Of a stretch of DNA of 64,000 bases, positions 31,046 to 64,000 are shown piece after piece. Location of the stretch: assembly GCF_008297975.1 (NCBI RefSeq), contig NZ_VLNY01000018.1, forward strand, positions 1-64,000, given 5' to 3'. Each line of letters begins with the position of its first letter. Positions within the stretch are counted from its first letter, which is position 1. The translations under genes were made by a program, and so were the position numbers. Origin of the DNA: Antrihabitans cavernicola. Its GTDB lineage: Bacteria; Actinomycetota; Actinomycetes; Mycobacteriales; Mycobacteriaceae. The notes below the pieces were generated by a model, which was not told where the DNA came from, made no database searches, and saw only the letters and a program-made list of their open reading frames with translations.

Positions 31046-31050
31046 CAGCT

Positions 31051-35499: not shown

Positions 35500-35515
35500 C
35501 CTAGGAGAGCCCGAC

Positions 35516-37496: not shown

Positions 37497-38243
37497 ATGA
37501 CCGTCCACTTCATCGGAGCAGGCCCCGGCGCCGCCGATCTGCTCACGGTGCGTGCTGTCGATCTGCTGCGCACCAGCCAGGTCTGTCTCTACGCGGGAAC
37601 GTATCTCGACGACGCCGTTCTCGCGTACTGCCCAACCGGCGCAACGCTGATCGACACCCAGAAGCTGAATCTGGACCAGATCATCGAGCACCTGGTTGCC
37701 GCGAACGCAGCGGGTCACGACGTGGCACGGCTCTGTTCTGGCGATCCGTCGATCTACTCGGCCCTCGCCGAACAGACGGAACGACTCGACGGCGCGAGCA
37801 TCCCATGGGATGTCACTCCCGGTGTCCCCGCCTATGCCGCCGCGGCCGCCCTGCTGCGTGCAGAGCTGACTGTTCCGGAATTGGTGCAATCGGTGGTGCT
37901 GACCCGCGCCCACGCGCGATCGACCGCGATGCCCGAGTCGGAGGTGCTGACCAATTTCGCGAAGACCCGCGCAACGCTCGTGCTGCATCTGGCGATCACG
38001 CGGATCCGCGACGCCGTGACGGATCTGCTGCCGGACTACGGCCCCGACTGCCCGGTCGCGGTGGTCTACCGCGCGAGCCAGCCACACGAACTGGTACTGC
38101 GCGGCACCCTCACCGACATCGCCGACCAGGTCGACGCCGCCGACCTTCGGCAAGCTGCGGTGATCATCGTCGGTGCCGCCCTGGAGCCGGATCGGATAGC
38201 CCGCTCGCACCTTTACGATCCCTGCCGGAACAGGCCGGTCTAA
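37497..38243 (+). CDS. cobM: CobM, precorrin-4 C11-methyltransferase
   Basis: 248 residues, normal length. The SAM-dependent tetrapyrrole methyltransferase marks are VHFIGAGPGAADLLTVRAVDLL at the start, VARLCSGDPSIYSALAEQ near residue 80 and VTPGVPAYAAAAALL near 105. It acts in the aerobic cobalamin pathway. It starts 16 bases after acetoacetyl-CoA synthetase. Other cob genes, which usually flank it in actinobacteria, are not seen to either side here. Confidence 0.93.
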   Translation: MTVHFIGAGPGAADLLTVRAVDLLRTSQVCLYAGTYLDDAVLAYCPTGATLIDTQKLNLDQIIEHLVAANAAGHDVARLCSGDPSIYSALAEQTERLDGASIPWDVTPGVPAYAAAAALLRAELTVPELVQSVVLTRAHARSTAMPESEVLTNFAKTRATLVLHLAITRIRDAVTDLLPDYGPDCPVAVVYRASQPHELVLRGTLTDIADQVDAADLRQAAVIIVGAALEPDRIARSHLYDPCRNRPV

Positions 38244-38427: not shown

Positions 38428-38666
38428 ATTGGTCGGATGATCACTGCGTCGATGGACGGGTCCGCGCACGAGTGGGATTCATGGCAGCCGGATCACCTGT
38501 AACAGGATGTGTGCACTCCGTAGATACACGTTATGAACTTTTTGACTTGATTGATATTCGAACTTGTCCCGAATCCTCGCTCGCAGCTGTTGTATAGAAG
38601 GTTGCGGTCGAGCACGAGGGAGTAGTCGTCGGGGAACCTTGGGGCGTTCCGGAAACGAGGTTACGG
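38428..38666. other. Leader region of the giant NRPS gene
   Basis: About 240 bases without a convincing gene. The middle (38515-38565) is clearly AT-richer than the surroundings and holds TTGACT at 38542-38547, a possible -35 box, but no good -10 follows at 17 bp. No iron box or tRNA is visible. A 21-codon frame from 38437 looks like chance. ACGAGG at 38655-38660 is the NRPS ribosome site. Confidence 0.5.
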
Positions 38667-41600
38667 TTGGACCAGGTAGATATTGATGGTGACGGCACAA
38701 CCGTCGACGAGTTCGCCGATGCTTTTCCGCTCTCTCCGGCTCAGCTCGGAATGTGGTACGCGCAGCACCTCGATCCCGAAGTCCCCATCAACATCGCGCA
38801 GTACGTCGACCTCCACGGCGAGCTGGATACCGAGGCCCTGAAGAAGGCAAGTGCGGCGGCAGCCGAGGACGTGGGCTCCGGTTTTCTCCGGATCATCGAA
38901 CGCGACGCCGAGCCCTTGCAGGTGGTCGATCTCTCGCTCGATGCGCCGCTGACCTATGTCGATTTCCGGGATGTCGAAGACCCGATCGCCGCTGCCGCCG
39001 ACTGGATGCGCGCCGAATACAGCAAGCCGATCGACATCGTCGAAGACCGGCTGATCTACGCTGCCGCCCTGCAGTTGGCCGACGACCATTTCTACTGGTA
39101 CTCCCGCGTTCATCACGTCGCGCTCGACGGCTTCGGCGCAATGACGTTCATGGGCCGCGTCGCCGAGCACTACTCGGCGTTGGTCGAGAACCGTGAGCCC
39201 GCGCCGGCAAAGGCCGGCGACCTGCGCGCTCTGTACGACTCCGAGGTCGCCTACCGCGACAGCACCCGATTCCAGACCGACAAGACCTATTGGGCCGAGC
39301 GCGTCGCCGGGCTGGAAGAGGGCACCAGCCTCACCGGCCGCACCGCGCCGCCCGCACCGATCAACGGCATCGCAAGCGCCGAACTGCCCGCGGGTGAGAA
39401 CTCCCTGCTCGAGGCATCGGTTGCCAAACACGACTCGTCGCCCGCCTCGTTGCTCATCGCGTCGTTCGGGGCGTACCTCGCGCAGATCACGGGTAACGAA
39501 GACGTCATCCTCAGCCTTCCGGTCACCGGTCGCACGACGGCAGTGATGCGCCGATCGGGCGGCATGGTGTCCAACGTCGTCCCGGTGCGGCTACGCGTCG
39601 GCAGCGATACGACCGTCGCCGAATTGCTCAAGGACGTCACCGTCGGCGTCTCCGGCGCACTGCGTCACCAGCGGTACCGCCACGAGGACATTCGACGCGA
39701 TACCGCGTCGCAGAACAACAACACCAAGGAGTTCTTCGGACCCTGGGTGAACATCATGCTGTTCCACAGCGAGATCGCGTTCGGCCCGATTCTGGGTCAG
39801 CTCAACGTGCTCTCGACCGGCAGCATCGAAGACCTCGGCGTCAACTTCTATCAGTCGGTTGCCGGCACCAGCGCCCACATCGACTTCGAGACCAACCCCA
39901 ACCTCTATTCCGACGACGAAGCGCGGCTGCATCACTCCCGCTTCATAGATTTCTTCGAGCGTTTCCTCGCCGCCGATGCCGAAGACACGGTGTGGTCCAT
40001 CGACGTCGTCACCGATCAGGAACGCGCTACGTCGGTAGTCGACTGGAACGCCAGCGGCCACGACGTGCCGGACACGACGCTGGTGCGACTGCTCGACGCA
40101 GGGGTCGTTGCAGGCGGCGACGACATTGCGCTCGAATTCGAAGGCGACGCCCTCACCTACGGCGAGTTCGATGCCCGCGTCAACCGCCTTGCCCGTCGCC
40201 TGATCGCCGATGGTGTCGGCCCGGAATCGCTTGTTGCCCTTGGTATGCGGCGATCGCTCGATCTGGTCGTCGGCATGCACGCCGTACTCAAGGCCGGTGG
40301 CGCCTACGTTCCCATCGACCCCGATCACCCTGCCGAGCGCACCGGATACATCCTCGACAGCTCCAAGCCGGTGTGCCTGCTCACCACGTCGCGCGACGAG
40401 ATCGACCTGCCGGACGGCGCGAACGTCCTCGAAATCGACACCGTCGATCTGTCGACGTACGACCCCGCCCCGATCGTGGACGACGAGCGCACGCTGCCAC
40501 TGCAACCGGGCAACACCGCCTACGTCATCTACACGTCGGGTTCGACCGGCCGTCCGAAGGGCGTCGCGGTCACCCACCGCGCCATCGTCAACCAGATGCT
40601 GTGGATGCTCGACGAGTACCGCCTCAATTCGTCGGATGTGGTGCTGCAGAAGACTGCAACAACCTTCGACGTATCGCTGTGGGGCTACTTCCTGCCGCTG
40701 CTGGTCGGCGCCAAGCTGGTCGTGGCCACGCCGGACGGCCACCGCGATCCGGCCTATGTCGCCGCCGCGATCGAACAGCACGGCGTCACGGTGACGGACT
40801 TCGTTCCGTCGATGCTCACCGTCTTCGTCGCGCAGGCCGCCGCAAGTCAATGTTCCACGCTACGACACGTTTTCGTCATCGGCGAGGCCCTCCCGCCGGA
40901 GACTGCCGCCGGTTTCCGCCGGATCAGCACGGCAGGTTTGCACAACCTGTACGGCCCGACGGAGGCCGCGGTCAGCGTCACCTACTGGGAGGCGACGGCC
41001 GCCGACGTCACCACAGTCCCGATCGGTGTGCCCGAGTGGAACGTGGCCGCGTACGTGCTGGACTCGCGACTGCGACCGGCCGCCATCGGAGCGCCCGGCG
41101 AGCTGTACCTGGCCGGTCGGCAGTTGGCGCGCGGCTACCTGGGTCGCCCCGACCTGACGTCCGATCGTTTCGTCGCAAATCCGCTCGACCCCCATGGTTC
41201 TCGCATGTACCGCACCGGCGACCTGGTGCGCTGGCGTGACACGGGCGTCCTGGAATACATCGGACGTACCGACTTTCAGGTGAAGTTCCGCGGCCAGCGC
41301 ATCGAGCTCGGTGAGATCGAGACAGACTTGCTCGCGCACCCGACGGTGAGCCAGACAGTCGTGCTCGTCGCCGACACCGCCACCGGCCAGCAGTTGGTCA
41401 GCTACGTCGTGCCCGCGCCGGGTCACACGGCGGATCCGGTGGAACTCACGCGGTTCGTCTCGCAGTCGCTGCCTACCTACATGGTGCCTGCAGCGATCAT
41501 GGTGATCGATGCGTTCCCGCTCAACACCAGTGGCAAGCTCGACCGAAAAGCGTTGCCGGAACCGGTCTTCAGTGCCGACGCCGCGTCGTACCGCGCGCCG

Positions 41601-44600
41601 CGGACGCAGGCCGAGCAGATCGTGGCGGGGATCTTCGGCGATGTGCTCGGTGTGTCGCGAGTCGGCATCGACGACAACTTCTTCGAGCTCGGCGGCAACT
41701 CACTGGTCGCTACCCAGACGGTGTCGCGCATCGGTGCGGCATTCGGGACGCAGCTGGGTGTACGCGCCCTGTTCGAGACGCCGACCGTTGCAGGCCTCAC
41801 GGCCCGCGCCGCGGCAGGCGCGCCTACCGATTCCACCCGGCCGGCGCTGGTCGCTCGTCCGCGCCCGGACCGGGTGCCGCTTTCGCTTGCGCAGCAACGG
41901 ATGTGGTTCCTCAACCAGTTCGATCCCACGGTTCCGACCTACAACCTGCCGTTCGTCGTACAGCTGAGCGGCAACGTCGACGTCGATGCGCTCCGGGCCG
42001 CGCTGAACGATCTGCTCGAACGTCAGGAGTCGCTGCGCACCGTCTTCCCGGAGTCCGGGGACGGCGGGTTGCAGCGGGTGCTGCCGATGTCGGAGGTCCA
42101 CCTCGACATCGAGCCGGTGCGGGTGACGGAGGCGCAACTGCAGCCGTTGCTCACCGAGTTCGCCTCGACAGGTTTCGACGTCTCGCACGAACTCCCGATC
42201 AGGGTTCGGGTTTTCCAACTGGCAGACGACGATTTCGCTGTCGCATTCGTGGTTCACCACATCGCTGCAGACGGCTTCTCGTTCGGCCCGCTCTCGCGCG
42301 ATGTTCTTGCCGCCTACCTGGCGCGCGCGAACGGAGCGGCACCCGATTGGGCGCCCCTCACCGTGCAGTATCGCGACTACACGCTGTGGCAGCGCGACCT
42401 CCTCGGCTCCGATGACATTCCGGATACCATTGCGGCGCAACAGGTCGACTACTGGCGTACCACGCTTGCCGGCCTACCGGAGCAGCTGGATCTGCCGCTC
42501 GATCACGCGCGGCCCGCGACGCAGAGCTTCCGCGGAGATCGCGTCTCGTTCCAGATCTCCGACGACCTGCATCGGCAGATCGCGGCGCTGGCTCGCGCTC
42601 AGGGCGTCAGCCTGTTCATGGTCGTGCACACCGCGCTCGCGGTGCTGCTGGCCCGGCTCAGCGGCAGCAGTGACGTTGCGGTCGGCACACCGATCGCCGG
42701 TCGCGGTGAGCAGGCGCTCGACGACTTGATCGGCATGTTCGTCAACACCCTGGTGCTGCGGACCGAGATCGAGAGCACGGAGAGTTTCGCCGACCTGCTT
42801 GCCCGCACACGCGACACCGACCTGGCAGCATTTGCCAACTCGGACGTGCCGTTCGAGCGTCTTGTCGAGGTGTTGAACCCGCGCCGATCGCAGGGGCGGC
42901 ATCCGCTGTTCCAGGTGATGCTGTCCTTCGAGCAGCAGTCTCAGCAGAGCATCACACTCGGCGATCTACTGGTGTCCGCTCACGAACTCGAAGTCGACAT
43001 CGCGAAGTTCGATCTCCAATTCACGCTCTCCGAGATCACCGATGGCAACGGCGAACTGGACGGCATTGCCGCCGTGATCATCTACGCCGCAGATCTTTTC
43101 GACGCCGCGCGGATCGAGCAGGTCGGCGAGCAGTTCGTCCGAATCCTGGAATCGGCGGTCGCTGCCCCCGCGAACGCGGTCGGCGACATCGAGGTACTGG
43201 ATCCGGCCGAGCGGGCCGACTTGATCGATCGCACGGGGCCGCCCGCCGAATCGCCGCGTACCCTCCCGGAGTTGCTGGCCGACGCGGCCGCGCTCGACCC
43301 GGATGCGATCGCGTTGTCCTACCGAGACAGCACTCTGACGTACGGCGAACTCGACGAGCGTTCCTCGCAGCTCGCGCGTGTGCTCATCGAGCGCGGCGTC
43401 GGTCCGGATTCGCTTGTTGCACTGGGTGTTCCGCGTTCCCTCGAATCGGTTCTCGCGGTGTGGGCGGTCGCCAAGGCGGGCGGCGCCTTCGTTCCCGTCG
43501 ATCCGAATTATCCGCCGGATCGCATCACGCACATGATCACGGACTCGAAGGCCGTACTGGGCCTGACGGTCGGCGTCGTTCGGCAAGAACTTCCGGACAC
43601 GGTGGAGTGGCTGACGCTCGACGACGAACTGTTCGAGCGTGACTACCTGCGTAGGTCGACCGAACCGGTCACCGACGACGAGCGCGTTGGATCGGTGGCA
43701 CCCGGCAACGCCGCCTACGTGATCTACACGTCCGGTTCGACGGGCGTGCCCAAGGGCGTCACCGTGACGCATGCCGGACTTGCGAACTTTGCTGCCGAGC
43801 AGCGCGAGCGCTACCGCATCACCGCCGACTCGCGAGCCCTGCACTTCGCGTCGCCGAGCTTCGACGCATCGGTGCTCGAACTCCTCATGGCGGTCGGTTC
43901 CGGTGCGCGCCTTGTCATCACACCGCCGTCGATCTACGGCGGTGAAGAACTCGCCGAGCTGATGCGCGCCGAGGGGGTTACCCACACCTTCCTCACGCCG
44001 TCGGTACTGGCGTCGATCGAGCCGACCGATCTGCCGGACCTGCGCGTCGTGGTCGCGGGTGGTGAAGCGGTGCCTGCCGAGTTGGTCGTGCGCTGGGCAC
44101 AGCCGGGCCTGGAATTCTTCAACGGTTACGGACCCACCGAAACCACCATCATGACCAATATCAGCGACCCGTTGTCGCCCGCTGACCTGGTCACGATCGG
44201 TGCCCCGATTCGCGGTATGCGTTCGCTGGTTCTCGACGAGCGCTTGCGGCCGGTACCGATCGGCGTTCCTGGCGAGCTGTACCTGTCCGGGATTCAGCTT
44301 GCCCGCGGCTACCACGATCGACCGGGGCTGACGGCGACTCGCTTTGTCGCCGATCCGTGTGGTGATTCCGGTGAGCGGCTGTATCGCACAGGGGATGTGG
44401 TCCGGTGGGTTTCCGGGGCGAGCGGAGCGACGGGGGATGTTTCAGCCGGAACCGTTGAGTACGTCGGCCGTTCGGACTTTCAGGTCAAGGTTCGCGGCTT
44501 CCGAATCGAACTCGGTGAGATCGACGCAGCTCTGCGCGCGAGTGATGACGTCGACTTCGCTGTCACAATCGGGCACACCGGTGAAACCGGTGCCACCGCA

Positions 44601-47600
44601 CTGGTTTCCTATGTCTTGCCGGGCCCGACCAAGACGATCGACACAGGAGACCTGAGCCGCTTCATCGGCCGCAGCCTGCCTGCGCACATGGTGCCCTCGG
44701 CGATCATCGTGCTCGACGAGATTCCGCTGACTCCGGTCGGCAAGCTCGATCGTGCCGCCTTGCCCGCACTCGTCCACGAGGTTCGCGAATTCCGCGCTCC
44801 CACAACACCGATCGAGCAGATCGTTGCCGATGTCTTCCGTGACGTCCTCGATGTGGATCGGGTCGGCGTCGACGACGACTTCTTCGAGCTGGGCGGCAAC
44901 TCGCTGATCGCGACCCAGGTGGCGTCCCGGCTCGGTACCGCGCTGGATACCCGTGTGCCCGTCCGCGCATTGTTCGAGGCGCCCACGGTCGGTGCACTTG
45001 CGGCGCGCGTCGAATCGCACGTCGGTGCGGGTGGCCGCGCAGCGTTGACCGCTCGCGAACGCCCGGAACGCATTCCGCTCTCGCTCGCACAGCAGCGCAT
45101 GTGGTTCCTCAACCGATTCGACACCGCGTCTGCCGTCAACAACATCCCGATCGCCATCAGGCTGACCGGTCAACTCGACGTTGCGGCGCTGCAGGTCGCC
45201 GTCATCGACGTGATCGATCGGCACGAGTCGTTGCGGACGGTGTTCCCCGAATCTGCCGACGGTCCGGAACAATTGGTGCTCGACGCCGCGCAGATCGTTC
45301 CCGACCTGACACCGGTCACCGTGACCAACGACAATCTCGCCCAGCACTTGGTCGAGCTTGCGTCTGTCGGATTCGACGTCACCGACGAAGTGCCCCTGCA
45401 CGCCAGGCTTTTCGAGGTCAGCGAGACCGAGTACATCCTCGGCATGGTGGTACACCACATTTCGGCCGACGGCTGGTCGATGGGGCCACTCGCGCGCGAC
45501 GTGATGGTCGCCTACGCGGCGCGCACCACGTGGGAGGCACCCTCGTGGTCGGCGCTGCCCGTTCAGTATGCGGATTACGCGCTGTGGCAACGAGAGGTAC
45601 TCGGTTCCGAAGACTCAGCGGATTCGCTGATCTCTCAACAGGTTTCGTTCTGGTCGAAGACCCTGGCAGGGCTCCCGGATCAGCTCGACCTCCCGGCTGA
45701 CCGCCCGCGTCCACTGGTCGCGTCGTATCGCGGCGGAACGTACGAATTCAACGTTCCGCCGCAGACGCAGCAGCGACTGTTCGAGCTGGCGCAGGCGAAC
45801 AACGCATCCGTCTTCATGGTGATGCACGCAGCGTTGGCCGTTCTGCTGTCGCGGATGTCGGGTACCGACGACATCGCCGTCGGTACCCCGGTCGCAGGTC
45901 GCGGTGAAGCTGCGCTGGACGATCTGATCGGCATGTTCGTCAACACGCTGGTGTTGCGCACCGAGATCGACCCGAACCGATCCTTCGCGGATCTGCTTGC
46001 CCGCGCCCGCGAAACCGACCTCGCGGCGTTCGGTCATGCCGATGTGCCGTTCGAGCGGTTGGTCGAGGTCCTCAACCCATCGCGGTCGCAGGCTCGGCAT
46101 CCGCTGTTCCAGGTCATGCTGACGTTCCAGAACACCGGACAGGTCAACCTCGAGCTACCTGGTCTGAGCGTGTCGGGCGTGGAGTTCGACGCCCACATGG
46201 CGAAGTTCGACCTGCAGCTGACCCTGTCCGAGACGAGTGTCAACGGTGCAGGTGCGGCCGGAATCGCCGCCGAACTGTCCTATGCCACTGATCTTTTCGA
46301 AGAATCGACGATGGCGATATTCGCCGAACGGTTCTTGCGGGTGCTCGACGCCGTGTCCGCCGGACCGATTCCCGCAGTCGGGGACATCGAGTTGTTGGAT
46401 GCCGCCGAGCGGCGGTTGGTGCTTCACGGCTTCAACGACACAAATTTCGACGTCGATTCGTCGGCGACGTTGGTGTCGTTGTTCGAGGCGCAGGTGGCTC
46501 GGACGCCGGACGCGGTGGCGGTGTCGTTCGAGGGTGAGTCGTTGACGTATGGCGAGTTCGCTTCTCGGGTGCACAGGTTGGCTCGGTGGTTGATTGCCGA
46601 GGGTGTGGGTCCGGAATCGCTTGTGGCTCTGGGTATGCGCCGCTCGTTGGATTTGGTTGTGGGTATGTATGCGGTGTCGGTGGCCGGTGGCGGGTATGTG
46701 CCGCTGGATCCGGATCATCCGGCGGAGCGCATCGACTACATCCTCGAGACGGCGCGACCGGTGTGTGTGTTGTCCACCAGTGCCGACGAGTTGGCTGTCA
46801 CCGGGCGAACGGTGTTGATCGATGAGCTCGATCTGTCCGGCTTTGCCGATGGCCCGGTCACGGATGCGGAGCGCACCGCGAATCTGTTGCCGTCGGGTAC
46901 GGCGTATGTGATTTTCACGTCGGGGTCGACGGGTCGTCCGAAGGGTGTTGCGGTCTCCCATGGTGCGATCGTGAACCGTTTGGTGTGGATGCAGTCGGCG
47001 TACGCATTGACCGAGTCGGATGTGGTGTTGCAGAAGACGCCGGCGACGTTCGATGTGTCGGTGTGGGAGTTCTTCTGGCCGTTGCAGACCGGTGCCCGGT
47101 TGGTGGTCGCGAGGCCGGATGGTCATCGTGATCCGGCGTATCTGGTCGAGGTCATTCGCGGCATGAACGTGACGACGGCGCATTTCGTGCCGTCGATGTT
47201 GGCGGTGTTCGTTGCTGCCGGGGCGAGCGGAGCGACGGGGGAAGTCAACGACGGTGCGAGGGAGTGCACGTCGTTGCGGCAGGTGTTTGCCTCGGGTGAG
47301 GCGTTGCCCGCTGCTACCGCACAACGGCTTCGGATGTTGACCGGTGCGGATCTGCACAACTTGTATGGCCCGACGGAGGCTGCGGTCGACGTGACGTTCC
47401 ACGAGGTGGTCGATGCGGATATCGCGTCGGTCCCGATCGGTGCGCCGGTGTTCAACACGGAGTTGTTCGTGTTGGACGGTCGGTTGCGTCCGGTGCCGGT
47501 CGGTGTTGCGGGTGAGTTGTATTTGGCGGGTGTCCAGTTGGCGCGCGGGTACGTTGCCAGGCCGGATCTGACGGCTGATCGGTTCGTGGCGAATCCGTAC

Positions 47601-50600
47601 GGTTCGGCTGGGGACCGCATGTATCGCACCGGGGACTTGGTGTCGTGGAACTCGCGGGGCGAGTTGGAGTACATCGGCCGCACCGATTTCCAGGTGAAGT
47701 TGCGTGGTCTGCGGATCGAGTTGGGGGAGATCGAGACCGCGTTGACCGCTGTGGCCGGGGTCGATCAATCCGTTGCACTCGTACGGTCGGATGATCGTCT
47801 GGGCGATCAGCTCGTTGCGTACTTGGTGGCGGCAGCTGACACCTCGGTCGACATCGACGCGGTACGCGAGCACATCAGTCGTGGTCTGCCTGCGTACATG
47901 GTGCCGACGGCGTTCGTGGTGTTGGACAGTCTGCCGCTCAACGCCTCCGGCAAACTCGACCGCAGGGCCCTGCCTGCTCCGGTGTTCGAGGCAAAGGTGT
48001 TTCGGGCACCGAGCACGCCGGTCGAAGAGATCGTGGCATCGACCTTCGCCGATGTGCTCGGTGTCGATCGGGTCGGCGTGGACGACGACTTCTTCGAACT
48101 CGGCGGCAACTCGTTGGTCGCGACCCAGGTGGTTGCTCGCCTCGGTGTCGCGTTGGATACCGAGATCGGTGTTCGGGTGTTGTTCGAGGCTCCGACGGTC
48201 GCAGCACTTGCGGTGCGTGCGGAGCAGCGGGCCGGCGCGGGTGCGAGGGCGCCGTTGGTGCCGCAGCCGCGACCCGAGCGGGTGCCGCTCTCCCTTGCGC
48301 AGCAACGCATGTGGTTCCTCAACCGATTCGACACCGAATCCGCGGTCAACAACATTCCGGTAGCCATTCGGCTGTCGGGACCGCTGAACGTCGGCGCACT
48401 ACAAGCGGCAGTGGCGGACGTCGTCGCTCGCCACGAGGTGCTGCGCACCTACTACCCGGATTCGGCCGCGGGCCCCCATCAACTATTGGTGCAGGCGCAG
48501 GACGCGACCCCGGATCTCGCGCCGGTGCGCGTGACTCCTGCCGAGCAGTTGGCCGATGTCGTTGCCTTCCTGTCTCGCGGCTTCGACGTCACTGCCGACG
48601 TTCCGTTCCGTGCCCGCTTGTTCCAGTCGGACACCACCGAATTCGTGCTCGCCGTTGTGGTGCACCACATCTCGGCGGACGGTTTCTCGGTCGGACCGTT
48701 CACGCGCGATCTGATGACCGCATACGCGGCCCGTTCTCACGACGAACTTCCCGGGTGGCAGCCGCTGGCGGTGCAGTACGCCGATTTCACGCTGTGGCAG
48801 CGGCAGGTACTCGGCGCGGAGACCGATCCGGAATCGCTGATCTCCGATCAGGTGAACTACTGGACAGGCGCCCTGGAGGGGCTGCCGGACCAGATCGAAC
48901 TTCCCTCCGACCGGCCGCGCCCGGCTACCGCGTCCGATCGTGGTGCTGCATATCGGTTCGAAATCGATCAAGAGACTCACCGCGGGCTCAATGCGCTGGC
49001 GCGCGAGCAAAATTCGACTGTGTTCATGGTGGTGCACTCCGCCCTTGCTGCGCTCCTGTCACGGCTCGCCGGAACCGACGACATCGCCATCGGCACTCCC
49101 GTTGCCGGCCGTGGTGAGCGCGCGCTCGACGATCTGATCGGCATGTTCGTCAACACTCTCGTGCTGCGGACCAACGTCGATACCAGCGCACCGTTCACCG
49201 AATTGCTGGCCAATGCCCGCGAGACGGACCTTCAGGCGTTCGCGCATTCGGACCTCCCGTTCGAACGCCTCGTCGAGATCCTGAATCCTGTTCGCTCCCA
49301 GGCTCGACACCCGCTCTTCCAGGTGTTGCTTGCCTTCCAGAACCAGGCGCAGCTGCACCTCGAGCTGGACGGCTTGTCGATTTCCGGGCTGGAGACCGGC
49401 GACGATCAGGCGAAGTTCGATCTGCAGCTGACCATCGTCGACCACCACGACCAGGCAGGCAATCCGGCGGCGGTCGAAGCGACGTTCGCTTACGCCACCG
49501 ACCTTTTCGACGAATCCACGGTTGCGGCATTCGCGCACCGATTCTTGCGGGTACTCGCCGCGGTGGTCGCCGATCCGTCGGTCGTGGTCGGCGACATCGA
49601 CCTGTTGGACAGTACCGAGCAGACGTTGGTGCTCGACACCTGGAATGCCACCGAGCATCGGATCGACGCCGGCGACACCCTGGTGTCCGTGTTCGCCGAG
49701 CAGGTCGAGCGCAGCGGCGCTGCTGTCGCCGTGATCGCCGACGGTGAAACGCTCACATACACGGAGTTCGCCGACCGGGTGCACGCCCTCGCGCGCTATC
49801 TGATCGGCGCCGATGTGGGACCGGATTCTCTTGTCGCCCTTGGTATGCGTCGCTCGCTGGACCTGGTGGTCGCGATGTATGCCGTTCTCGAGGCAGGCGC
49901 AGGATACGTGCCGCTGGACCCGGATCACCCGAGCGAGCGCATCGCCCACATAGTCGACACCGCCCGTGCCGAGTTGGTGCTGACCACTTCGGGAGACGAT
50001 TTCGCGCTGCCGGTCGGTCCGCGTGCCATCGATGTGTCCACGCTGGATCTGAGTGGCTATCCGATCGGCCCGGTTCGCGACGACGAGCGGCTCGGGACGT
50101 TGCATCCCGCCAACACCGCGTACGTGATCTTCACGTCCGGATCGACCGGGCGCCCCAAGGGCGTCGCCGTACCGCATTCCGCAGTGGTCAACCAGATTCG
50201 GTGGATCACCGACCGATTCGCGATGGGCCACGACGACGTGGTGCTGTTCAAGACGCCGCCCACCTTCGACGTGTCGGTGTGGGAGCTCTACGGCGCGTTG
50301 GCCACCGGTGGCTCCATGGTGATCGCGACCCCGGACGGGCACCGCGATCCGGCCTACTTGGCGAATGTCATTGCCGCCGAACAGGTCACGATGACGTCCT
50401 TCGTCCCGTCGATGCTGTCCGTATTCGCGGCATCGATCGCCCCGGGCTCGGTGTCGTCCCTACGCGTGCTGCAGATCGCGGGCGAGGCATTGCCGCGGGA
50501 GGCCGTCGCGGCGGTGCGTCGCGTGTCGGACGCCGCGATACACAACCTCTACGGACCAACCGAATTCACAGTGCACGCCACCGAGTTCGAGCTGCCTGCC

Positions 50601-53600: not shown

Positions 53601-56600
53601 CCGTCGGCGTTCTACCAATTGGCAGAGGCAGACCGCTTCGCGGACGCCGATGCGCCCCCTCTCGCACTGCGTTATGTGGTGTTCGGCGGCGAGGCTCTCG
53701 AGCTGCGCAGGTTGACCGACTGGTACGACAGGCACGGCGATACCGCGCCGCGCCTGGTCAACATGTACGGCATCACCGAGACAACGGTGCACGTGTCGTA
53801 TCGCGAACTCGACAGTGTCACAGCTGCTTCCGCGACCAGCAGCATCGTCGGCCGGGCGATCTCGGGCCTTCGCGTCTTCGTTCTCGACACTCGACTGCGT
53901 CCGGTGCCGGTGGGTGTGCCCGGTGAGATGTACGTCGCCGGTGACCAATTGGCGCGTGGCTACCTGGGGCAGCCCGCGCTGACCGCGGCGCGCTTCGTCG
54001 CCAACGCGTTCGGCACGGGCGGAACGTCGCTCTATCGCACGGGTGACCTTGCGCGCTGGAACCGCGAAGGTGAACTCGAATACCTGGGCCGGGCGGACGA
54101 TCAGGTCAAGATCCGTGGTTTCCGCATCGAGCTCGGCGAGATCGAATCCGCTGTGCTGGCGCAGGAATCGGTCGGCCAGGTTGCCGTGGTCGTTCGCGAG
54201 GACATTCCCGGCGATCAGCGCCTCGTCGCGTACGTGGTGCCCTCACCCGGCGCAGCCGTCGATATCGACGCGGTCCGCAACGGCGCGGGCGATCGGCTCC
54301 CGTCGTACATGGTGCCGTCGGCGCTGGTGGTCCTCGACGCAATACCGCTCACCGCCAACGGCAAACTCGACCGTCGTGCCCTGCCCGCACCGGCGGTGGA
54401 GGCGCGCGATTTCCGCGCACCGACCACACCCGTCGAAGAAGTCGTTGCAGGCGTGTTCGCCGAGGTGCTCGGTGTGGAGCGGGTCGGGCTGGACGACGAC
54501 TTCTTCGCGCTCGGCGGCAACTCGCTGATCGCGACCCGGGTGGTGTCCCGGATCGGTGCTGCCCTCGGCGCGCGCATTCCGGTGCGGACCTTGTTCGAGG
54601 CGTCGACGGTGGAAGCGCTTGCCGCACGGGCAGAATCGCACTCCGGCGGAGATGCCGGGCGGCCGCTGGTCGCGGGTCCGCGACCGGAACTGATTCCGCT
54701 GTCGTTCGCCCAGCAGCGGATGTGGTTCCTCAACAAGTACGACACCCAGTCCGCTGCCTACAACCTGCCGATCGCGATCAAGCTGTCCGGTGACCTCGAT
54801 GTCGACGCCCTCCGCCTCGCTGTCGGCGACGTCGTGCGCAGGCACGAGTCGCTACGCACGCGCTACCCCGAGCACGGCGGAACTCCGTATCAGGAGATCG
54901 TCGGTGCCGAGAGCGCGATTCCGGACTTGGCGCCGGTGTCGGTGGCTCCCGATGCCGTTGTCGGTGCGATCACCGATTTCGTGAGCGCCGGATTCGACGT
55001 GAGCGAGCAGATTCCGTTGCGCGCCCGGTTGTTCCGTGCAACCGATGCCGAGCACGTTCTCGCCGTTGTCGTCCATCACATCAGTGCCGACGGTTTCTCC
55101 ATGGGCCCGCTGACCCGCGATGTCATGGCCGCCTACGCGGCGCGCGTGGAAGGCTCGGCACCTGCCTGGGCACCGTTGGAGGTGCAGTACGCGGACTACA
55201 CCCTGTGGCAGCGCGCCGCATTGGGCACCGAGGACGACGCGACGTCGCTGCTGTCTCAGCAGGTCGACTACTGGCGCACCGCTCTCGCCGGAATCCCGGA
55301 CGAGCTCGACCTGCCTGCCGACCGGCAGCGGCCGTCGATCGCATCCAACCGCGGCCGCACCAGTATCTTCCACATTGGCGAAGATCTGCTCGCCGACCTG
55401 GAACGGGTTGCTCGCGAACAGAACTCGACGCTGTTCATGGTGGTGCACGGCGTCCTTGCCGTCCTGCTCGCGCGACTCAGCGGATCCGACGACGTGGCGA
55501 TCGGAACGCCTGTCGCCGGTCGAGGCGAGGCCGCGTTGGATCCCGTTGTCGGCATGTTCGTCAACACACTGGTGTTGCGCACCGGCATCGAGCCGACCGA
55601 ATCCTTCGGCGACTTCCTCGGCCGGGTGCGTCAGGTGGACCTCGATGCGTTCGGACACGCCGATGTGCCGTTCGAGCGGCTGGTCGAGGTTCTCGACCCC
55701 GAACGCTCGCAGGCACGTCATCCGCTGTTCCAGGTGATGCTGGCGTTCCAGAACCTGGATCAGACCACGCTGGAACTGCCCGGATTGAATGTCGGTGCAC
55801 TCGATCTCGACGAGGACATCGCGCGATTCGACTTGCAACTGACTCTGTCCGAGGACAGCTCGTCGGGGATGACCACCGCGATCACGTACGCGACGGATCT
55901 GTTCGACGAATCGACCATTGCGCTGTTCGCGCAGCGGTGGTTGCGCGTATTGCAGGCGGTTGCGGCGAACCCACAGATCGGTGTCGCCGAGCTCGACATC
56001 CTCGACCGCGCGGAGCGCGCGGACCTGGTGTCGCGCAGAGGGTCCGAGGCGGTCACGCCGCGCCCGCTGCCGGATCTGATGGTCGCTGCAGCGGCTGCCA
56101 ATCCCACGGGTGTCGCCGTGGTGTTCGAGGGCACCGAGCTGACCTATTCCGAGCTCGACGAGCGGTCGAACCGGCTCGCGCGCCTACTGATCGATCGAGG
56201 CGTGGGACCGGAAGACCTTGTGGCGGTCGGCATCCCGCGATCCGCCGACTCGGTGCTTGCATCCTGGGCTGTCAGCAAGGCAGGCGCGGCCTTCGTGCCC
56301 GTCGATCCCAACTATCCCGCGGATCGCATCGCGCACATGGTGTCGGATTCCGGTGCCGTCGTCGGCGTCACCGTGGCATCGGCACGGGACTCGTTGCCGG
56401 ACACCGTGGGGTGGTTGGCACTCGACGACGCCGACGTGCTCGATCGGGCCGATTCGCTTCCGGTCGAGGCGATCACGGATGCCGATCGGGTACGGGATCT
56501 GCTGCCGACGCATCCGGCATACGTCATCTACACCTCGGGTTCGACAGGCATGCCGAAGGGCGTTCTGGTCACCCACGCCGGACTTGCCAACTTCAGCGCC

Positions 56601-59600
56601 GAACAGCGTGAGCGGTACACCATCACCCCGGAATCTCGCGCACTGCACTTCGCGTCGCCGAGCTTCGATGCGTCCGTCCTCGAGTTGCTGCTCGCGATCT
56701 GCACAGGAGCCACCCTTGTGGTCGCGCCGCCGACGATTTACGGCGGCGAGGAACTTTCCGACCTGCTGCGCCGCGAGCGCGTGACGCATGCATTCATCAC
56801 CCCGGCGGCGTTGGCCTCGGTCGATCCGACCGGAATAGACGATCTTCGAGTCGTGGTGGCCGGTGGCGAGGCCTGCCCGCCGGAACTGGTCGCCAAGTGG
56901 GCCGCAACGGATTCCGCGGGCAAGCGAGAATTCTTCAACGGCTACGGGCCCACCGAGACCACCATCATGACCAACATCAGCGATCCGCTGGTGGTCGGTG
57001 AAACCGTCACCATCGGTGCACCGGTACGCGGTATGCAGTCGCTGGTGCTCGACGGTCGACTGCGTCCGGTTCCCGTCGGTGTCGCAGGTGAGCTCTATCT
57101 GTCCGGCATCCAGTTGGCTCGTGGCTACCACGCACGGCGTGGTCTGAGCGCAGAGCGATTCGTGGCGAATCCGTTCGTCGCCGGCCAGCGGATGTACCGC
57201 ACGGGTGACGTGGTGCGGTGGACCACCTCGGGAACTGTCGAGTACGTGGGCCGCAGCGACTTCCAGGTCAAGGTCCGCGGATTCCGCATCGAACTCGGTG
57301 AAATCGACGCCGCGCTCGCAGCGCACGAGAGCGTCGACTTCGCGACGACCATCGGCCACCGCGGCAGCACGGGTGTGGTCTCGCTGGTGTCGTACGTGGT
57401 TGCGGCAGCTCAGCATTCGATCGATGTGGCCGCGCTGACCACGTTCGTCGAAGGGCGCCTGCCGTCCTACATGGTGCCCGCGACGATCATGGTGCTCGAT
57501 CGCATTCCGCTGACACCGGTCGGCAAGTTGGATCGGGCGGCGTTGCCGGAGCCGGTGTACGCGGATGCGGTTGCGTTCACGGCTCCGCGGACGCCGGTGG
57601 AGGAGACCATTGCGGCGGTGTTCGCCGAGGTGTTGGGTGTGGAGCGGGTGGGTGTCGACGATTCGTTCTTCGCGCTCGGCGGCGACAGCATCGTGTCGAT
57701 TCAGTTGGTGTCGCGGGCGAAGGCTCGTGGTGTGGTGTTCTCGCCGCGCAACGTCTTCGAGCAGCGCACGGTAGCGGGGCTGGCCGCGATCGCGGAGATT
57801 GCCGATGCGGAATCGACCGCTCCGATCGTGTTGGCGGAGTTGCCCGGTGGCGGTGTCGGCGACGTGCCGCTCACGCCTGTCGTGCGGTTCATGGCCGAGC
57901 GTCGCGGTAGCTTCGACCGGTTCAACCAGTCGATCACTCTCGAGCTGCCCCTCGGAATCGACCGTGCGGGCGTCGTCGGCGTTCTCACCGCCGTTGTCGA
58001 TCGCCACGACATGTTGCGGTCGATGCTGCGGAAGGTTCGCGGTGAGTGGCAGCTCGACGTGCTGCCGCCCGGCGACGTCGACGTCGACGCACTCGTCGAC
58101 CGCGTGGTGTTCGATCCGGCGCTCGACCCCGCATCGGTAACCGCTGTCGTGACCGATGAATTGAACGCCGCCTTGGGTCGGTTGGATCCAGCCGCCGGAC
58201 GCGTCGTGCAGTTCGTCTGGCTCGATCCCGTCGCAACGATCGGTGGCGGCGCACGCTCCGGACGACTCATCGTCGCCGCGCACCACCTCGCCGTCGACGG
58301 TGTGTCGTGGCGAATCATCGTGCCGGACTTGGTCTCTGCCTGGGCGCAGATTTCCGCTGGGCAGACGCCCACGCTCGCTGCACCGGGTACGTCGATGCGG
58401 CGCTGGTCGACGGCGCTGACGGAGTTGTCCGACGATCGGGCAATCGAACTGCCGATGTGGCAGGAGATCGTCGACGGTCCTGATCCGCTGATCGGACCGC
58501 GCGCGTTGAACCCGAAGGTGGACTTGGCGCCGACCGTGCGCAAGGTGCACGTCGAGATTTCGGCAGAGGACACGAAGGCACTCCTGACGACGGTGCCCGC
58601 GCTCTATCACGGCGCCGTCAACGACGCGCTCCTCACGGCTCTCGCTCTGGCGTTGACGTCATGGCGTAAGCGTCGTGGTGTGAGTGAGGCGTCGTCGCTG
58701 ATTCGTCTCGAGGGGCATGGTCGTGAAGAGGAGGTCGTGCCGGGTGCCGATCTGTCTCGGACGGTGGGGTGGTTCACGGCGATCTTCCCGGTGCGTCTGG
58801 ATCTGGGTGGCATCGATGTCGATGATGCTCTTGCCGGTGGTCCTGCGATGGGGTCGGCGATCAAGGCTGTCAAGGAACAGATACTTGCGTTGCCGGACAA
58901 GGGCATCGGCTACGGCATGCTGCGATACCTCAACGAGAACACTGCAGGCCAGCTACCCAAGCAGCCTGCGGGCCAGGTCAGCTTCAACTACCTCGGGCAG
59001 ATCTCCGCATCCGACATTCCGGAACAGCTGGCAGGCTTCGGCTGGATCCCGGCGAGCGATCTCGGCGACCTGATTGCCGAACCCGATGCCGACATGCCGG
59101 CGATGGCCGCAGTCGATGTGAACGCAATCGTGTTGCAGGGCAAAATGGTTGCGGACTTCGGCTACCCGGAGACACTGCTCGAACGAAGTGACGTCGAAGA
59201 ATTGGCGACGCTGTGGACAAGCGCGTTGGCAGCTGTGGTTCGTCACGCCGCCAACCCCCGATCCGGTGGCCGGACGCCGTCCGATCTATCCCTGGTCACG
59301 GTGGGTCAGCGCGACATCGAGGTGTGGGAGCAACGCTACCCCGCTCTGACCGACGCCTGGCCGCTATCACCGCTGCAGGCCGGGCTGATGTTCCACGCGT
59401 TGCTCGCCGCGGCAACGGTGGACGTCTACACGTCGCAGATCGTGCTGTCGCTCGAAGGCGCGGTCGACAGCACCCGACTGCGGATCGCAGCGGAATCGTT
59501 GCTCTCGCGCTACCCGAACCTGCGGACGGCGTTCGTCACCGACACCGCCGGTGAGGCAGTCCAGGTGGTCCTCGACAACGTCGAAACCCCCTGGGTGGAA

Positions 59601-62600
59601 ATCGATCTCAGCCTGAACACCGAACGTGAGCGCGCTGCCGAGTACGACCGCGTCATCGCAACCGATCGCGCGACGCACTTCGATCTCGCGCGTCCGCCGC
59701 TGATCCGTTTCACGCTCGTGAAGGTCGGCGTCCAGGAATGGCGACTCGTCGTCACCAACCACCACATCCTGCTCGACGGCTGGTCCATGCCGTTGCTGAT
59801 GAAGGATCTGCTGGTGCTCTACGCGGCGCGCGGCGATCGATCCGTGCTGCCTGCCGTTCGGCCCTACCGTTCCTACCTGGAATGGCTTGCCCAGCAGGAT
59901 CGATCGCTGTCCGAAACCGCATGGGCAGCAGCATTGTCCGGCGTCGCGGAACCGACTCTGCTGGCGCCGGCTGAGCCGGGCCGGGTCGTGACGGCGTTGG
60001 CGGGTGAGTTCATTTTCGAGTTGGACGAGGCGCGGACTGCTCGGTTGTCGGTGTTGGCGGCGCGGGTCGGGGTCACGGTGAACACCGTGCTGCAGGCCGG
60101 GTGGGGTGTGTTGTTGTCGCGCCTGGTCGGTGCGGATGATGTGGTGTTCGGTACGACGGTGTCGGGTCGGCCCGCGGGCCTTTCCGGTGTGGAGTCGATG
60201 GTCGGGTTGTTCATCAACACGGTGCCGGTGCGGGTGCGGGTCGATCCGGCGGAGTCGGTCGAGGAGTTGCTGACCCGGGTTCAGGGTGAGCAGGCGGATC
60301 TGTTGGATCACCACTATGTGGGGTTGGCCGATATTCAGGCCGCGGCCGGGGTGTCCGGGTTGTTCGACACGTTGGTGGTGTTCGAGTCGTACCCGGTCGA
60401 TGCGGCGGGTATTGCGTCGCAGGCGGCGTCGATCGATGGGATGTCGATCACGGGTATCGATGCGGCGGATGCGACGCATTATCCGTTGAGTTTGATCGTG
60501 TCGTTGGCGGCCACCCTGTCGGTGCGGGCTGGGTTCTTGCGGGATTTGTTGGATGAAGAGTCGGTGCGGTTGATCGCGGACCGCCTGATTCGGGTGTTGT
60601 CGGCGATGATCGCGGCACCGGATGCGGCGGTGGGTGATATCGAGTTGCTCGATGTTGCCGAGCGGTCGTTGGTGTTGTCCGGTTTCAACGACACCGCACA
60701 GGTGGTGGATTCGTCGGCGACGTTGGTGTCGTTGTTCGAGGCGCAAGCGTCCGCGACGCCTAATGCGGTGGCGGTGTCGTTCGAGGGTGAGCAGCTGACG
60801 TATGGCGAGTTCGCGTCGCGGGTGCATCGCCTTGCTCGGTGGTTGATTGCCGAGGGTGTGGGTCCGGAATCGCTGGTGGCTCTGGGTATGCGCCGCTCGC
60901 TGGATTTGGTCGTAGGCATGTATGCGGTATCGGTGGCCGGTGGCGGGTATGTGCCGCTGGATCCGGATCATCCGGCGGAACGCATCGAGTACATCCTCGA
61001 GACGGCGCGACCGGTGTGTGTGTTGTCGACCAGTGCCGACGAGTTGACTGTCACCGGGCGAACGGTGTTGATCGATGAGCTGGATCTGTCCGGCTTTGCC
61101 GATGGCCCGGTCATGGATGCGGAGCGCACCGCGAATCTGTTGCCGTCGGGTACGGCGTATGTGATTTTCACGTCGGGGTCGACGGGGCGGCCGAAGGGTG
61201 TTGCGGTCAGCCACGGTGCGATCGTGAACCGTTTGGTGTGGATGCAGTCGGCGTACGCATTGACTGCCGATGATGTGGTGTTGCAGAAGACGCCGGCGAC
61301 GTTCGATGTGTCGGTGTGGGAGTTCTTCTGGCCGTTGCAGACCGGTGCCCGGTTGGTGGTGGCGCGCCCGGATGGTCATCGGGATCCGGCGTATCTGGTC
61401 GAGGTCATTCGTAGCGAGAACGTGACGACGGCGCATTTCGTGCCGTCGATGTTGGCGGTGTTCGTTGCTGCCGGGGCGAGCGGAGCGACGGGGGATGTCA
61501 CCGCCGGTGTGAGGGAGTGCACGTCGTTGCGGCAGGTGTTTGCGTCGGGTGAGGCGTTGCCGGGGAAGACGGCGCAGCAGTTGCGTGCCGCGACGGGTGC
61601 TCGACTGCACAATTTGTACGGTCCGACCGAGGCTGCGGTCGACGTGACGTTCCACGAGGTGGTCGATGCCGATATCGCGTCGGTGTCGATCGGTGCGCCG
61701 GTGTTCAACACGGAGTTGTTCGTGTTGGACGGTCGGTTGCGTCCGGTCCCGGTCGGTGTCGCGGGTGAGCTCTACCTTGCGGGTGTCCAGTTGGCGCGCG
61801 GCTATGTCGGGCGCCCGGACCTGACGTCTGATCGGTTCGTGGCGAACCCGTACGGAGAGCCTGGTGCGCGGATGTATCGCACGGGTGATCTGGTGTCGTG
61901 GGACGGCAACGGCGAGTTGAATTACATCGGCCGCACCGATTTCCAGGTGAAGTTGCGTGGCCTGCGGATCGAACTCGGTGAAATCGAAACCGCCCTAACG
62001 GGTCTGGACTCGGTGGGTCAGGCCGTGGTTGTGGTGCGCTCGGATTCGCGTACCGGGGAGCAGTTGGTCGGGTATGTGGTGCCCGCTGTGGGTGCCTCGG
62101 TGGATATCGATGATGTACGTGAGCAGATCGGCCGCGGTCTACCGGGTTATATGGTGCCGTCGGTCTTCGTGGTGTTGGATGTGTTGCCGCTCAACGCGTC
62201 GGGCAAGTTGGATCGTAAGGCGTTGCCTGCTCCGGTGTTCGAGGCGAAGGTCTTCCGGGCACCGACGACACCGGTCGAAGAGATCGTCGCCGCGACCTTT
62301 GCCGACGTGCTCGGCGTCACGCGGGTCGGACTCGACGACGACTTCTTCGAGTTGGGTGGCAACTCGTTGGTCGCAACCCAGGTGGTTGCCCGACTCGGAG
62401 CCGCATTGGACACCGAGATCGGTGTTCGGGTGCTGTTCGAAGCATCGACGGTGGCAGCTCTGGCGGTGCGTGCGGAGCAGCGTGCAGGTGCAGGTGCTCG
62501 CGCAGCGTTGGTGCCGCAGGATCGGCCGGATCGGGTGCCGCTCTCCCTTGCGCAGCAACGCATGTGGTTCCTCAACCGCTTCGATACCGACTCGGCGGTC

Positions 62601-64000
62601 AACAACATTCCCGTCGCGGTGCGGCTGTCCGGCTTGCTCGACCGGCAAGCATTGCAGATCGCCATCGCCGACGTTCTCGCTCGGCACGAGTCGCTGCGCA
62701 CGATGTACCCCGAGGCGGACGGCGCCGGGTATCAGCAGATCGTCCCGACAGCCCGGGTCATTCCGGATCTCACCTCGATAGACGTCACCGAAGACGAATT
62801 GCCGCGCCATATCAGGGATTTGGTGCTCACCGGCTTCGACGTGTCCACCGAGGTGCCGTTCCGTGCGCGGTTGTTCGAGGTAAGCCCGACTGAACACATT
62901 CTCGCGCTCGTGGTCCATCACATTTCGGCCGACGGATTCTCCATGGGCCCGTTGACCCGCGATGTCATGACTGCCTACTCGGCACGCGTGGATGGCGGCG
63001 AGCCGGCATGGACGCCGCTCCCGGTTCAGTACGCGGACTACGCAATCTGGCAGCGGAGCGTTCTCGGTTCCGAGGACGACGCGGCATCGTTGATCGGGCG
63101 CCAGGTCGACTTCTGGAAGACTGCGCTCCACGGCATTCCGGAACAACTCGACCTCCCGGCGGACCGGCCGCGACCCGCGGTCGCATCGGGTCGCGGAGCG
63201 ACGTATCGCTTCGAGATTCCCGCCGAAACCCATCGTGCGCTCGCGGATCTCGCGCGCTCACGCGGCGAAACCATGTTCATGCTGGCGCATTCCGGACTTG
63301 CCGCCCTCTTGGCACGACTGTCTGTTGCCGACGACATCACCATCGGCACCCCCGTTGCCGGTCGCGGCGAGCGCGCGTTGGACGACTTGATCGGCATGTT
63401 CGTCAACACGCTCGTGTTGCGGACGCGCGTCGAGTCCGACACGTCGCTGGCCGCGCTGGCAAGTGGTGTGCGCCAGGCAGATCTGGATGCGTTCAGCAAC
63501 GCTGATGTGCCGTTCGAGCGACTGGTCGAGGTACTCAATCCCGTTCGCTCGCAGGCCCGTCATCCGCTGTTCCAGGTGATGCTGGCGTTCCAGAACATGC
63601 GGCAGACCGCACTCGAGCTGCCGGGTCTGAGCGTCAGCGGTATCGAACTGGCGACCCAGGTTGCCAACTTCGATCTGTACCTGACTCTCACCGAGAACCT
63701 CGATGCGCAGGGCAACCAGGCGGGCATGTCTGCCGAATGGATCTATGCGACAGATCTGTTCGACGAGTCGACCATCGAAACGTTGTCGACGCGCTACGGC
63801 ATGGTGTTGGACGCGTTCGCAGCCAACCCGGCGCTGCCGGTCGGCGATGTCGGCCTGCTGAGCAGTGTCGAGCGCAGACAGGTGCTCACCGACTGGAACG
63901 CAACCGAGCATGCGATACCGGATGTGGTGCTACCGGAGTTGTTGGCAGCGCAGGCATTACGCACGCCGTCGGCCGTTGCGTTGTCTTTCGAGGGTGAGTC
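38667..64000 (+). CDS. Giant non-ribosomal peptide synthetase (incomplete, runs off the right edge)
   Basis: One frame stays open for more than 8,440 codons. The only start between the last in-frame stop (38595) and the first domain is a TTG at 38667, with ACGAGG 6 bases upstream. Order: C1-A1-T1, C2-A2-T2, C3-A3-T3, C4-A4-T4, C5-A5-T5, C6-A6-T6-E, C7-A7-T7, C8-A8(start). All C domains have HHxxxDG, all A domains have the TSGSTGxPKG loop and the final GKLDR Lys, and all T domains have the Ser site. Adenylation codes read X1-X2-Ser-X4-Thr-D-X2-Ser. No loading A domain, thioesterase or MbtH gene lies inside the window. The product is unknown; a capped linear or cyclic peptide of at least eight residues is expected. 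Confidence 0.97.
38700..41835 (+). other. NRPS module 1 (C-A-T)
   Basis: C1 has HHVALDG at 39111-39131 and looks like the EntF/DhbF starter-type C domain ([32 protein letters not shown]), which accepts an aryl or acyl cap. A1 (about 40060-41580) has the ten-residue code DVWDFILVSK. It is close to the Ser code at its ends but has Asp for His and Ile for Ser at two central positions, so I make no prediction. The T1 phosphopantetheine Ser codon is at 41700-41702. Confidence 0.85.
41860..45050 (+). other. NRPS module 2 (C-A-T)
   Basis: C2 has HHIAADG at 42255-42275. A2 (about 43240-44770) has the code DALFVGGIMK, the same as A6. A hydrophobic residue is likely but the exact one is uncertain. The T2 Ser codon is at 44901-44903. 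The A2 loop before [10 protein letters not shown] carries an in-frame GASGATG insert (44413-44440) that A6 lacks. Confidence 0.82.
44413..44440 (+). repeat. 28-bp repeat, copy 1 (in A2)
   Basis: A sequence starting CCGGGGCGAGCGGAGCGACG, read in frame as GASGATGDV. It is identical to the copy at 61471-61498. In A2 it lies in the loop between DVVRW and VEYVGRSD, where the sister domain A6 reads [11 protein letters not shown] with no insert. The insert adds about 12 residues. Confidence 0.8.
45055..48240 (+). other. NRPS module 3 (C-A-T), serine
   Basis: C3 has HHISADG at 45453-45473. A3 (about 46450-47960) has the code DVWHFSLVDK, identical to the Ser-activating domain of EntF, so Ser is expected with good confidence. 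The T3 Ser codon is at 48111-48113. A3 is a near-copy of A7 and shares its unusual codon use and its GASGATG insert (47218-47245). Confidence 0.88.
47218..47245 (+). repeat. 28-bp repeat, copy 2 (in A3)
   Basis: The same unit with one base changed near its 3' end (read GASGATGEV). It lies in the A3 loop between MLAVFVAA and [13 protein letters not shown]. Confidence 0.8.
48280..51440 (+). other. NRPS module 4 (C-A-T)
   Basis: C4 has HHISADG at 48663-48683. A4 (about 49690-51170) has the code DVWSQALVHK, which matches none of the standard codes I know. The VHK end recalls Thr and the DVW start recalls Ser or Arg-type codes. No prediction is made. The T4 Ser codon is at 51309-51311. Confidence 0.82.
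51470..54640 (+). other. NRPS module 5 (C-A-T), threonine
   Basis: C5 has HHISADG at 51861-51881. A5 (about 52900-54390) has the code DFWNVGMVHK, the standard Thr code, so Thr is expected. The T5 Ser codon is at 54522-54524. A5 differs in overall sequence from the other A domains (for example YGITETTVH), so it comes from a separate lineage. Confidence 0.88.
54685..59290 (+). other. NRPS module 6 (C-A-T-E), D-residue
   Basis: C6 has HHISADG at 55074-55094. A6 (about 56090-57550) has the code DALFVGGIMK, as in module 2. T6 has GGDSIVS (Ser codon 57687-57689) where the other T domains read GGNSL; the GGDS form is typical before an epimerase. E (about 57830-59280) has [11 protein letters not shown] at 58281-58313 and [14 protein letters not shown]. 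The residue added here should leave as the D form. Confidence 0.88.
59340..62480 (+). other. NRPS module 7 (C-A-T), serine
   Basis: C7 opens with [14 protein letters not shown] and has HHILLDG at 59760-59780, the form expected of a D-accepting C domain after an E domain. A7 (about 60720-62240) has DVWHFSLVDK, predicting Ser. The T7 Ser codon is at 62364-62366. A7 is a near-copy of A3, including the GASGATG insert (61471-61498). Confidence 0.88.
61471..61498 (+). repeat. 28-bp repeat, copy 3 (in A7)
   Basis: Identical over 28 bases to copy 1 and at the same place in A7 as copy 2 in A3. All three copies are read in the same frame. Confidence 0.8.
62530..64000 (+). other. NRPS module 8 (C, then the first residues of A)
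   Basis: C8 has HHISADG at 62916-62936 and ends near 63880. From about 63930 the frame enters a new A domain ([22 protein letters not shown]) and is cut by the window edge. The substrate code is not visible. Confidence 0.85.

Follow-up and report, generated by a model that had tools for sequence, protein, structure and literature searches.

Here we propose that a giant nonribosomal peptide synthetase (NRPS) of Antrihabitans cavernicola is the first of three subunits of a 19-module assembly line for a long, Ser-rich and probably N-acylated peptide, in which a half adenylation (A) domain at the end of one subunit would be the socket for the next, including in relatives where the later subunits are encoded at remote loci. 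Judged on the sequences compared below, we consider this reading likely. With less assurance, though leaning slightly in its favour, we suggest that degenerate A domains constitute a new class of NRPS docking element, either as a half domain of ~300 aa facing an Arg-rich N-terminus or as a ~100-aa form present on both sides of the junction, that unlinked loci may thereby contribute to one peptide of 18 to 19 residues, with variants where receiving subunits are duplicated, and that the giant genes may have arisen by fusion at such junctions.

The window, that is, the whole stretch of 64,000 nucleotides analysed, comprises bases 1-64000 of contig C10 (64,859 bases) from a 5.66-Mb genome in 41 contigs. 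It contains the 5' part of the giant gene (38667..64000, + strand; 8,444 codons, ~56%) as a frame that is open throughout, with neither a stop nor an N, where the original prediction had warned of a stop or an assembly join. The frame opens at 38598, and its predicted start is a TTG at 38667, which has GAGG directly upstream and is the sole ATG, GTG or TTG ahead of the first condensation (C) domain, the next in-frame ATG (38751) lying inside that domain. Since the protein encoded on contig C10 is 74% identical over 8,690 residues to an orthologue from another assembly (G003), chance is excluded as the origin of the frame.

A domain scan with models built in this analysis returned seven complete modules and part of an eighth, bearing out what had been predicted from the letters: six successive C-A-T units, with an E-type piece behind T6, are followed by C7-A7-T7, by C8 and by the first part of A8. 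The C-A-T repeats carry HHxxxDG and carrier Ser motifs, which mark the protein as a modular NRPS. On the forward strand, C1 (38721..40028) is followed by A1 and T1 (40074..41792; nine-letter code DVWDFILVS) and then by the C-A-T modules 2 (41871..44990; DALFVGGIM), 3 (45069..48203; DVWHFSLVD), 4 (48279..51401; DVWSQALVH), 5 (51477..54614; DFWNVGMVH) and 6 (54693..57776; DALFVGGIM). An E domain of module 6 (57984..59321, borders approximate; TIGR01720 at 132 bits against a cut-off of 74.2, with a PF00668 match) predicts that residue 6 is D. Module 7 (59355..62456; DVWHFSLVD) precedes module 8 (62532..64000), in which C8 is complete and A8 (DVWDFILVS), beginning at 63930, runs past the end of the window and is broken off where the contig stops. 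The codes were read at the positions that we take to define them, and we assign residues to two of them, on the assumption that DVWHFSLVD stands for Ser and DFWNVGMVH for Thr; together with the E domain after module 6 they reproduce the predicted order X1-X2-Ser-X4-Thr-D-X2-Ser.

C1 is a starter-type condensation domain, with 7c1k, 7c1h and 7c1p, ObiF1 and CDA peptide synthetase I as its best solved relatives, and it probably acylates residue 1. Because it is closest in sequence to C domains that presumably initiate chains (those of the 7c1k group, ObiF1 and CDA synthetase I), an acyl cap is likely, and a starter C in module 1, the mark of a lipopeptide NRPS, probably makes the product N-acylated. 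The cap-loading enzyme that had been proposed as a target was not identified among the window genes examined, the adjoining ligase being an acetoacetate--CoA ligase. The ligase gene belongs to a group at 29507-37480 together with genes for acyl-CoA carboxylase beta and alpha, MaoC and HpcH; these genes look catabolic, and each of the other three genomes of the genus has relatives of the carboxylase, MaoC, HpcH and ligase genes close to the locus. The next gene, cobM (37497..38243, + strand), encodes precorrin-4 C11-methyltransferase (TIGR01465, 274.4 bits against a cut-off of 259.65). A cobM homologue lies <1 kb upstream on the same strand in 67 of 80 relatives' loci and farther upstream in five; none was found in six of the 80, and two had too little DNA to judge. 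We regard it as a conserved upstream neighbour that is probably not part of the pathway.

The gene runs on beyond the window, as predicted, although extending the contig to the right yields just 859 bases: contig C10 ends at 64859, inside A8. In G003 the orthologue is encoded by a single frame (14,997 aa) within a contig of 949 kb. A cut frame at the end of contig C41 (- strand, from 190793 to 172598) aligned with the last part of this orthologue at 76% (6,051 residues, 39 gap columns), and the same orthologue places the gap between contigs C10 and C41 inside A8 with a length of ~215 residues. We infer that the window gene resumes on contig C41 after ~215 missing codons, a link that crosses an unsequenced gap, and that its full length is ~15,010 aa (8,731 + 215 + 6,064). 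Contigs C10, C20, C13 and C41 each end inside NRPS sequence, and exact overlaps sought between contig ends gave none. The gene might instead run on into contig C13, which starts with nearly the same T-domain sequence as contig C41. However, contig C41 is collinear with the intact orthologue and contig C13, matching it at 47% over 4,929 residues with 2,311 gap columns, is not; we therefore rejected the latter continuation, which we regard as very improbable.

On contig C41 the 3' part of the giant gene is followed on the same strand by the gene for a 5,546-aa NRPS, the candidate subunit 2, while a 3,019-aa NRPS with a thioesterase at its end, the candidate subunit 3, is encoded on the opposite strand. 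Joined to the giant, these would give three subunits with 19 modules, although we put the partnership of subunit 3 tentatively because of its orientation and because other frames starting with A appear to exist (on contig C20 and, by match position, on contigs C1, C34 and C37). Subunit 1 ends, after 12 complete modules, in domain C13 and a half A domain; subunit 2 begins with an Arg-rich peptide and a complete A-T and ends in domain C17 and a half A domain; and in subunit 3 an Arg-rich peptide and A-T stand at the start and the thioesterase at the end. The description of the line as one polypeptide stands as regards a very large single NRPS, but no release domain follows its last C and two further subunits are predicted. 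Of the accessory functions suggested at the outset, a terminal thioesterase was indeed found, at the end of candidate subunit 3, and MbtH genes do exist in the genome, but on contigs C39 and C2 only.

Two genes for related proteins with GNAT acetyltransferase domains lie between those of subunits 2 and 3 (G000 C41:153089-154387 and 154570-155844, - strand), and the second of these double-GNAT genes overlaps the end of subunit 2. A second large NRPS is split over two contigs (G000 C13:35632-62101 and C20:1-14589); contig C20, with the 5' part, and contig C13, with the 3' part, probably hold one gene, and the chain C13_B is a possible first subunit.

The feature on which our proposal turns is the end of these chains. 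Nine complete chains ending after a C domain were present in the NRPS stretches fetched from four Antrihabitans genomes, and seven of them (two each in G000, G001 and G003 and one in G002) end in a half A domain. This piece extends 297-317 residues past C, begins as an A domain does, lacks the A3 motif and stops before A5, so that both the A3 ATP-binding motif and the C-terminal half of a functional A domain are missing; in the giant's tail, Pfam recognises the N-part of an AMP-binding domain at 81 bits. The other two chains (G002_A and C13_B) carry a shorter A-like piece of 88-102 residues. The giants of G198, G063, G079 and G117 likewise end in C and a half domain, and the tail of G004 gave a weak match (87 bits). 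The subunit that follows a half domain carries its own complete A-T, so that an A domain and a half are present across the two frames.

In a phylogenetic tree, 21 half domains formed one branch with 100/100 support against the N-parts of 71 intact A domains. The tails were chosen with a model of the seven Antrihabitans tails, at a score of at least 150 bits and lying at the stop, which places those below 150 bits (G004 and one of G066) outside the tree, and the intact A domains came from six fetched stretches. The intact A domains nearest to the tails include the first A of downstream subunits (open fork, 93/91). The grouping of the tails into clades seems to reflect where in the line each subunit stands; the G131 tail groups with those of giant subunits with poor support (81/33), yet its partner's first code differs. 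In an order-wide sample of 120 genomes, home family included and with at most 19 candidates scored per genome, nine matched the tail model at E <= 1e-45. Among the 30 of 65 tail-model matches whose ends were read, six loci (five distinct) had a half end, all in the home family, and the four loci from other families had intact A domains.

The receiving side is marked by charge. Over up to 45 residues before the receiving A, the net charge was +4 to +8 in all 11 adjacent pairs, compared with a mean of -4.7 and a maximum of +2 for the same stretch before 181 internal A domains. The tails of these 11 pairs have a net charge of -26 to -39, against a mean of -14.5 and a minimum of -25 in the N-parts of intact A domains (n=181). 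Tails from the remote loci described below (-18 to -21) overlap intact A domains in charge, which makes charge a weak signal. The pair counts exclude G004, whose partner is cut, and G066, whose locus is messy and perhaps frameshifted; the 9,975-aa frame of G066 has an odd end and was left out as well.

Where the line is split earlier, after C7 or C8, we observed a second type of junction, with ~100 residues past the last C and ~100 before the next A in all five cases examined (G002, G131, G136, G159 and G066). The pieces on the two sides share homology (hhalign 99.75%, E 3e-27), and the upstream one is also homologous to the start of the half domain (91%). G047 provides a further adjacent pair of this form, and C13_B with the frame on contig C20 may be one in the A. 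cavernicola genome itself, with weak scores of 18.6 and 11.9 bits. When this form was searched for across the class, 11 of 196 genomes gave matches; the best five (40-86 bits) belong to the home family, and matches in other families, judged by score, reached 32-38 bits. In G008 (C3:246962-281255, - strand), an 11,431-aa NRPS has an A-derived piece of ~100 aa at two places within its chain, each precisely where C passes into A, as would be expected if giants arise by fusion at such junctions.

We additionally examined three Nocardia-group genomes (G198, G063 and G117), whose giants have 12 codes each and behind which no NRPS was found within the 28-31 kb fetched downstream. A remote stretch, lying ~1.66 Mb off in G198 (same contig, if circular), ~1.71 Mb off in G063 and on another contig in G117, supplied 10 NRPS frames in total. 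All 10 start with A and have a basic N-terminus (+3 to +9), four end in a half domain, and none has a starter C. The code DVLLVAGIL, which accounts for seven of 243 readable codes, belonged each time to the first A of a receiving subunit, four of them remote and three adjacent, the latter being the next gene in three Antrihabitans genomes. Of the 247 A domains compared, the three from outside the genus that most resemble the Antrihabitans receiving A were all remote ones (63-65%). The proposed partnership of giant and remote subunits rests on G198, G063 and G117.

G198 and G117 each have two alternative final subunits with TE-like ends. No TE-like motif was flagged in the last subunit of G003 or in the two frames that close the G063 remote locus, so that release is not uniform. 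The two alternative final subunits of the G198 remote locus share a near-identical N-terminal Arg-rich peptide, and the G117 remote locus has two receivers with the code DVLLVAGIL; such duplicated receivers and final subunits in G198 and G117 suggest combinatorial products. Compared by description, the remote locus fits Nocardia cluster #4, which holds two thioesterase domains according to the part of a 2014 survey considered here (PMC4035055).

Architecture, conservation, membership of one clade, the charge pattern and the identity of the codes lead us to read the half domains as docking domains, and from them we infer binding, subunit order in trans and product length. Subunit 1 would make a 12-residue acyl-peptide and contribute domain C13, and the acidic half domain behind it would be the socket for the basic, Arg-rich N-terminus of subunit 2. 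Docking would thus bring a complete A13-T13 to a domain C13 that has none. At the end of subunit 2, domain C17 and its half domain would meet the Arg-rich N-terminus of subunit 3 in the same way, with the thioesterase at the end of the line. With remote receivers, the socket would join the products of two loci into a single assembly line, and two receivers with a similar N-terminal peptide could give rise to more than one product.

The half domains could instead be inert relics of duplicated or broken modules, kept because they are harmless. They do derive from A domains and have diverged (37-76% identity to the first), and their nearest intact relatives, the first A domains of downstream subunits among them, are those that a tandem duplication would give. 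However, they form a single clade across several genera, occupy the same place, all lack A3 and are truncated at a similar point, and a basic partner follows in 11 of 11 pairs. Between G000 and G003 the tail of the giant shows 77% identity, a value that falls in the range of its neighbours (69-92%). In three pairs the dN/dS of the tails was 0.11, 0.34 and 0.42, well below 1, against 0.11-0.13, 0.17-0.19 and 0.32-0.54, in the same order, for the last C and last full A, indicating purifying selection that is weaker than next door only in the second pair, in which the tail evolves ~2x as fast as its neighbours. We therefore regard mere relics as improbable. Equally, the half ends might be frameshifts or assembly artefacts of continuous NRPS genes, as the four contigs of A. 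cavernicola that end inside NRPS sequence and the frameshifted appearance of the G066 locus might suggest. Half ends are seen in many assemblies, among them the one-contig genomes G198, G079, G131, G136 and G159, and the complete A domain of the following frame led us to reject truncation by artefact, an explanation that is hardly credible.

A further alternative concerns the Nocardia genomes, where the giant and the remote subunits starting with A might serve independent pathways, the giant freeing its own peptide. In favour of this reading, which we think unlikely, the two are encoded apart, and in the relevant part of the 2014 survey the Ser-rich and Thr-rich NRPS lines appear as clusters of their own (PMC4035055). 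It would leave giants that end in C and a half domain without a thioesterase, remote stretches in which no starter C was seen, and a receiving A code otherwise found only in the adjacent Antrihabitans subunit. Should remote subunits indeed dock onto the giant, a widespread orphan NRPS system in Nocardia and related bacteria would until now have been seen as fragments: the 12-module enzyme that lacks a release domain and the gene sets that lack a starter would belong to a single machine. The junctions would then represent a docking class that acts inside a module and could be useful for engineering split NRPSs, and they would provide testable rules for subunit order and a predicted product length for mass spectrometry.

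Finally, we compared the giant and its junctions with known systems. The first C region matched at E <= 1e-130 in 111 of 201 family genomes, the present one included, and weaker matches may be paralogues. Among the matches listed at no less than 57% identity, 11 other genomes carry frames of at least 14,500 aa (14,573-17,357 aa). Single-protein lines of this size, described as rare in the original prediction, are accordingly usual in the family. The open frame of G079 (C1:6361895-6413968) encodes 17,357 aa in 15 modules and a C, and measures 52.07 kb from stop to stop. The Kolossin synthetase Kol of Photorhabdus, with 15 modules, is likewise a giant bacterial NRPS from a single gene, and at 49.1 kb kol is called the largest continuous bacterial NRPS in the part of PMC9002308 considered here; it belongs to another bacterium and another product, and the G079 open frame is longer.

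The survey section on Nocardia describes a conserved Ser-rich 12-module orphan NRPS, line #35, common to the strains surveyed, and takes 12-residue peptides as the products of this line (PMC4035055). Compared by description, the Antrihabitans giant is probably the same, having 12 modules and many Ser codes. Unlike line #35 as described in that section, where half domains go unmentioned, the present giant ends in C and a half domain, and the predicted product is for this reason longer than 12 residues. Of the earlier claim of an undescribed product, it holds that no known product was matched, but the kind of locus has probably been reported already. No report on NRPSs of Antrihabitans was found in the open-licence literature. 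The Nocardia family GCF 6 has neighbours for nitropropane dioxygenase, a metallopeptidase, an esterase, an epimerase and an enoyl-CoA enzyme, as far as given in the text of PMC7413640 used here; this set was not recognised in the 20 upstream frames scanned in the window. The rhodococcal peptides first taken as reference concern family-level kin, the host belonging to the genus Antrihabitans. The humimycin NRPS of Rhodococcus (PMC5550956, in the part considered) shares a starter C and the bacterial family, but humimycin has seven residues, given as Tyr-Ser-D-Tyr-Phe-D-Thr-Val-Val in the relevant part of PMC12024397, whereas here Ser codes stand at 3 and 7, Thr at 5 and E at 6 in a line of 19 modules. 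A humimycin-type product was rejected on this mismatch of codes and E position.

No title or abstract describing a truncated, pseudo- or degenerate adenylation docking domain was found in the open-licence literature, and the word "docking" is absent from the parts considered of two genus surveys (PMC11433410 and PMC12153302). A 2021 review names COM, PAX and beta-hairpin domains as NRPS docking types in the section considered (PMC9113145), and these likewise join NRPS subunits in order. COM domains at E/C junctions and PAX domains at T/C junctions are described there as short elements, whereas the pieces reported here are A-like, ~300 or ~100 aa long and placed at a C/A junction inside the module, which sets them apart from all three types. 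In our view the giant NRPS itself belongs to a known kind, and the degenerate-A junctions are the new part, if they dock.
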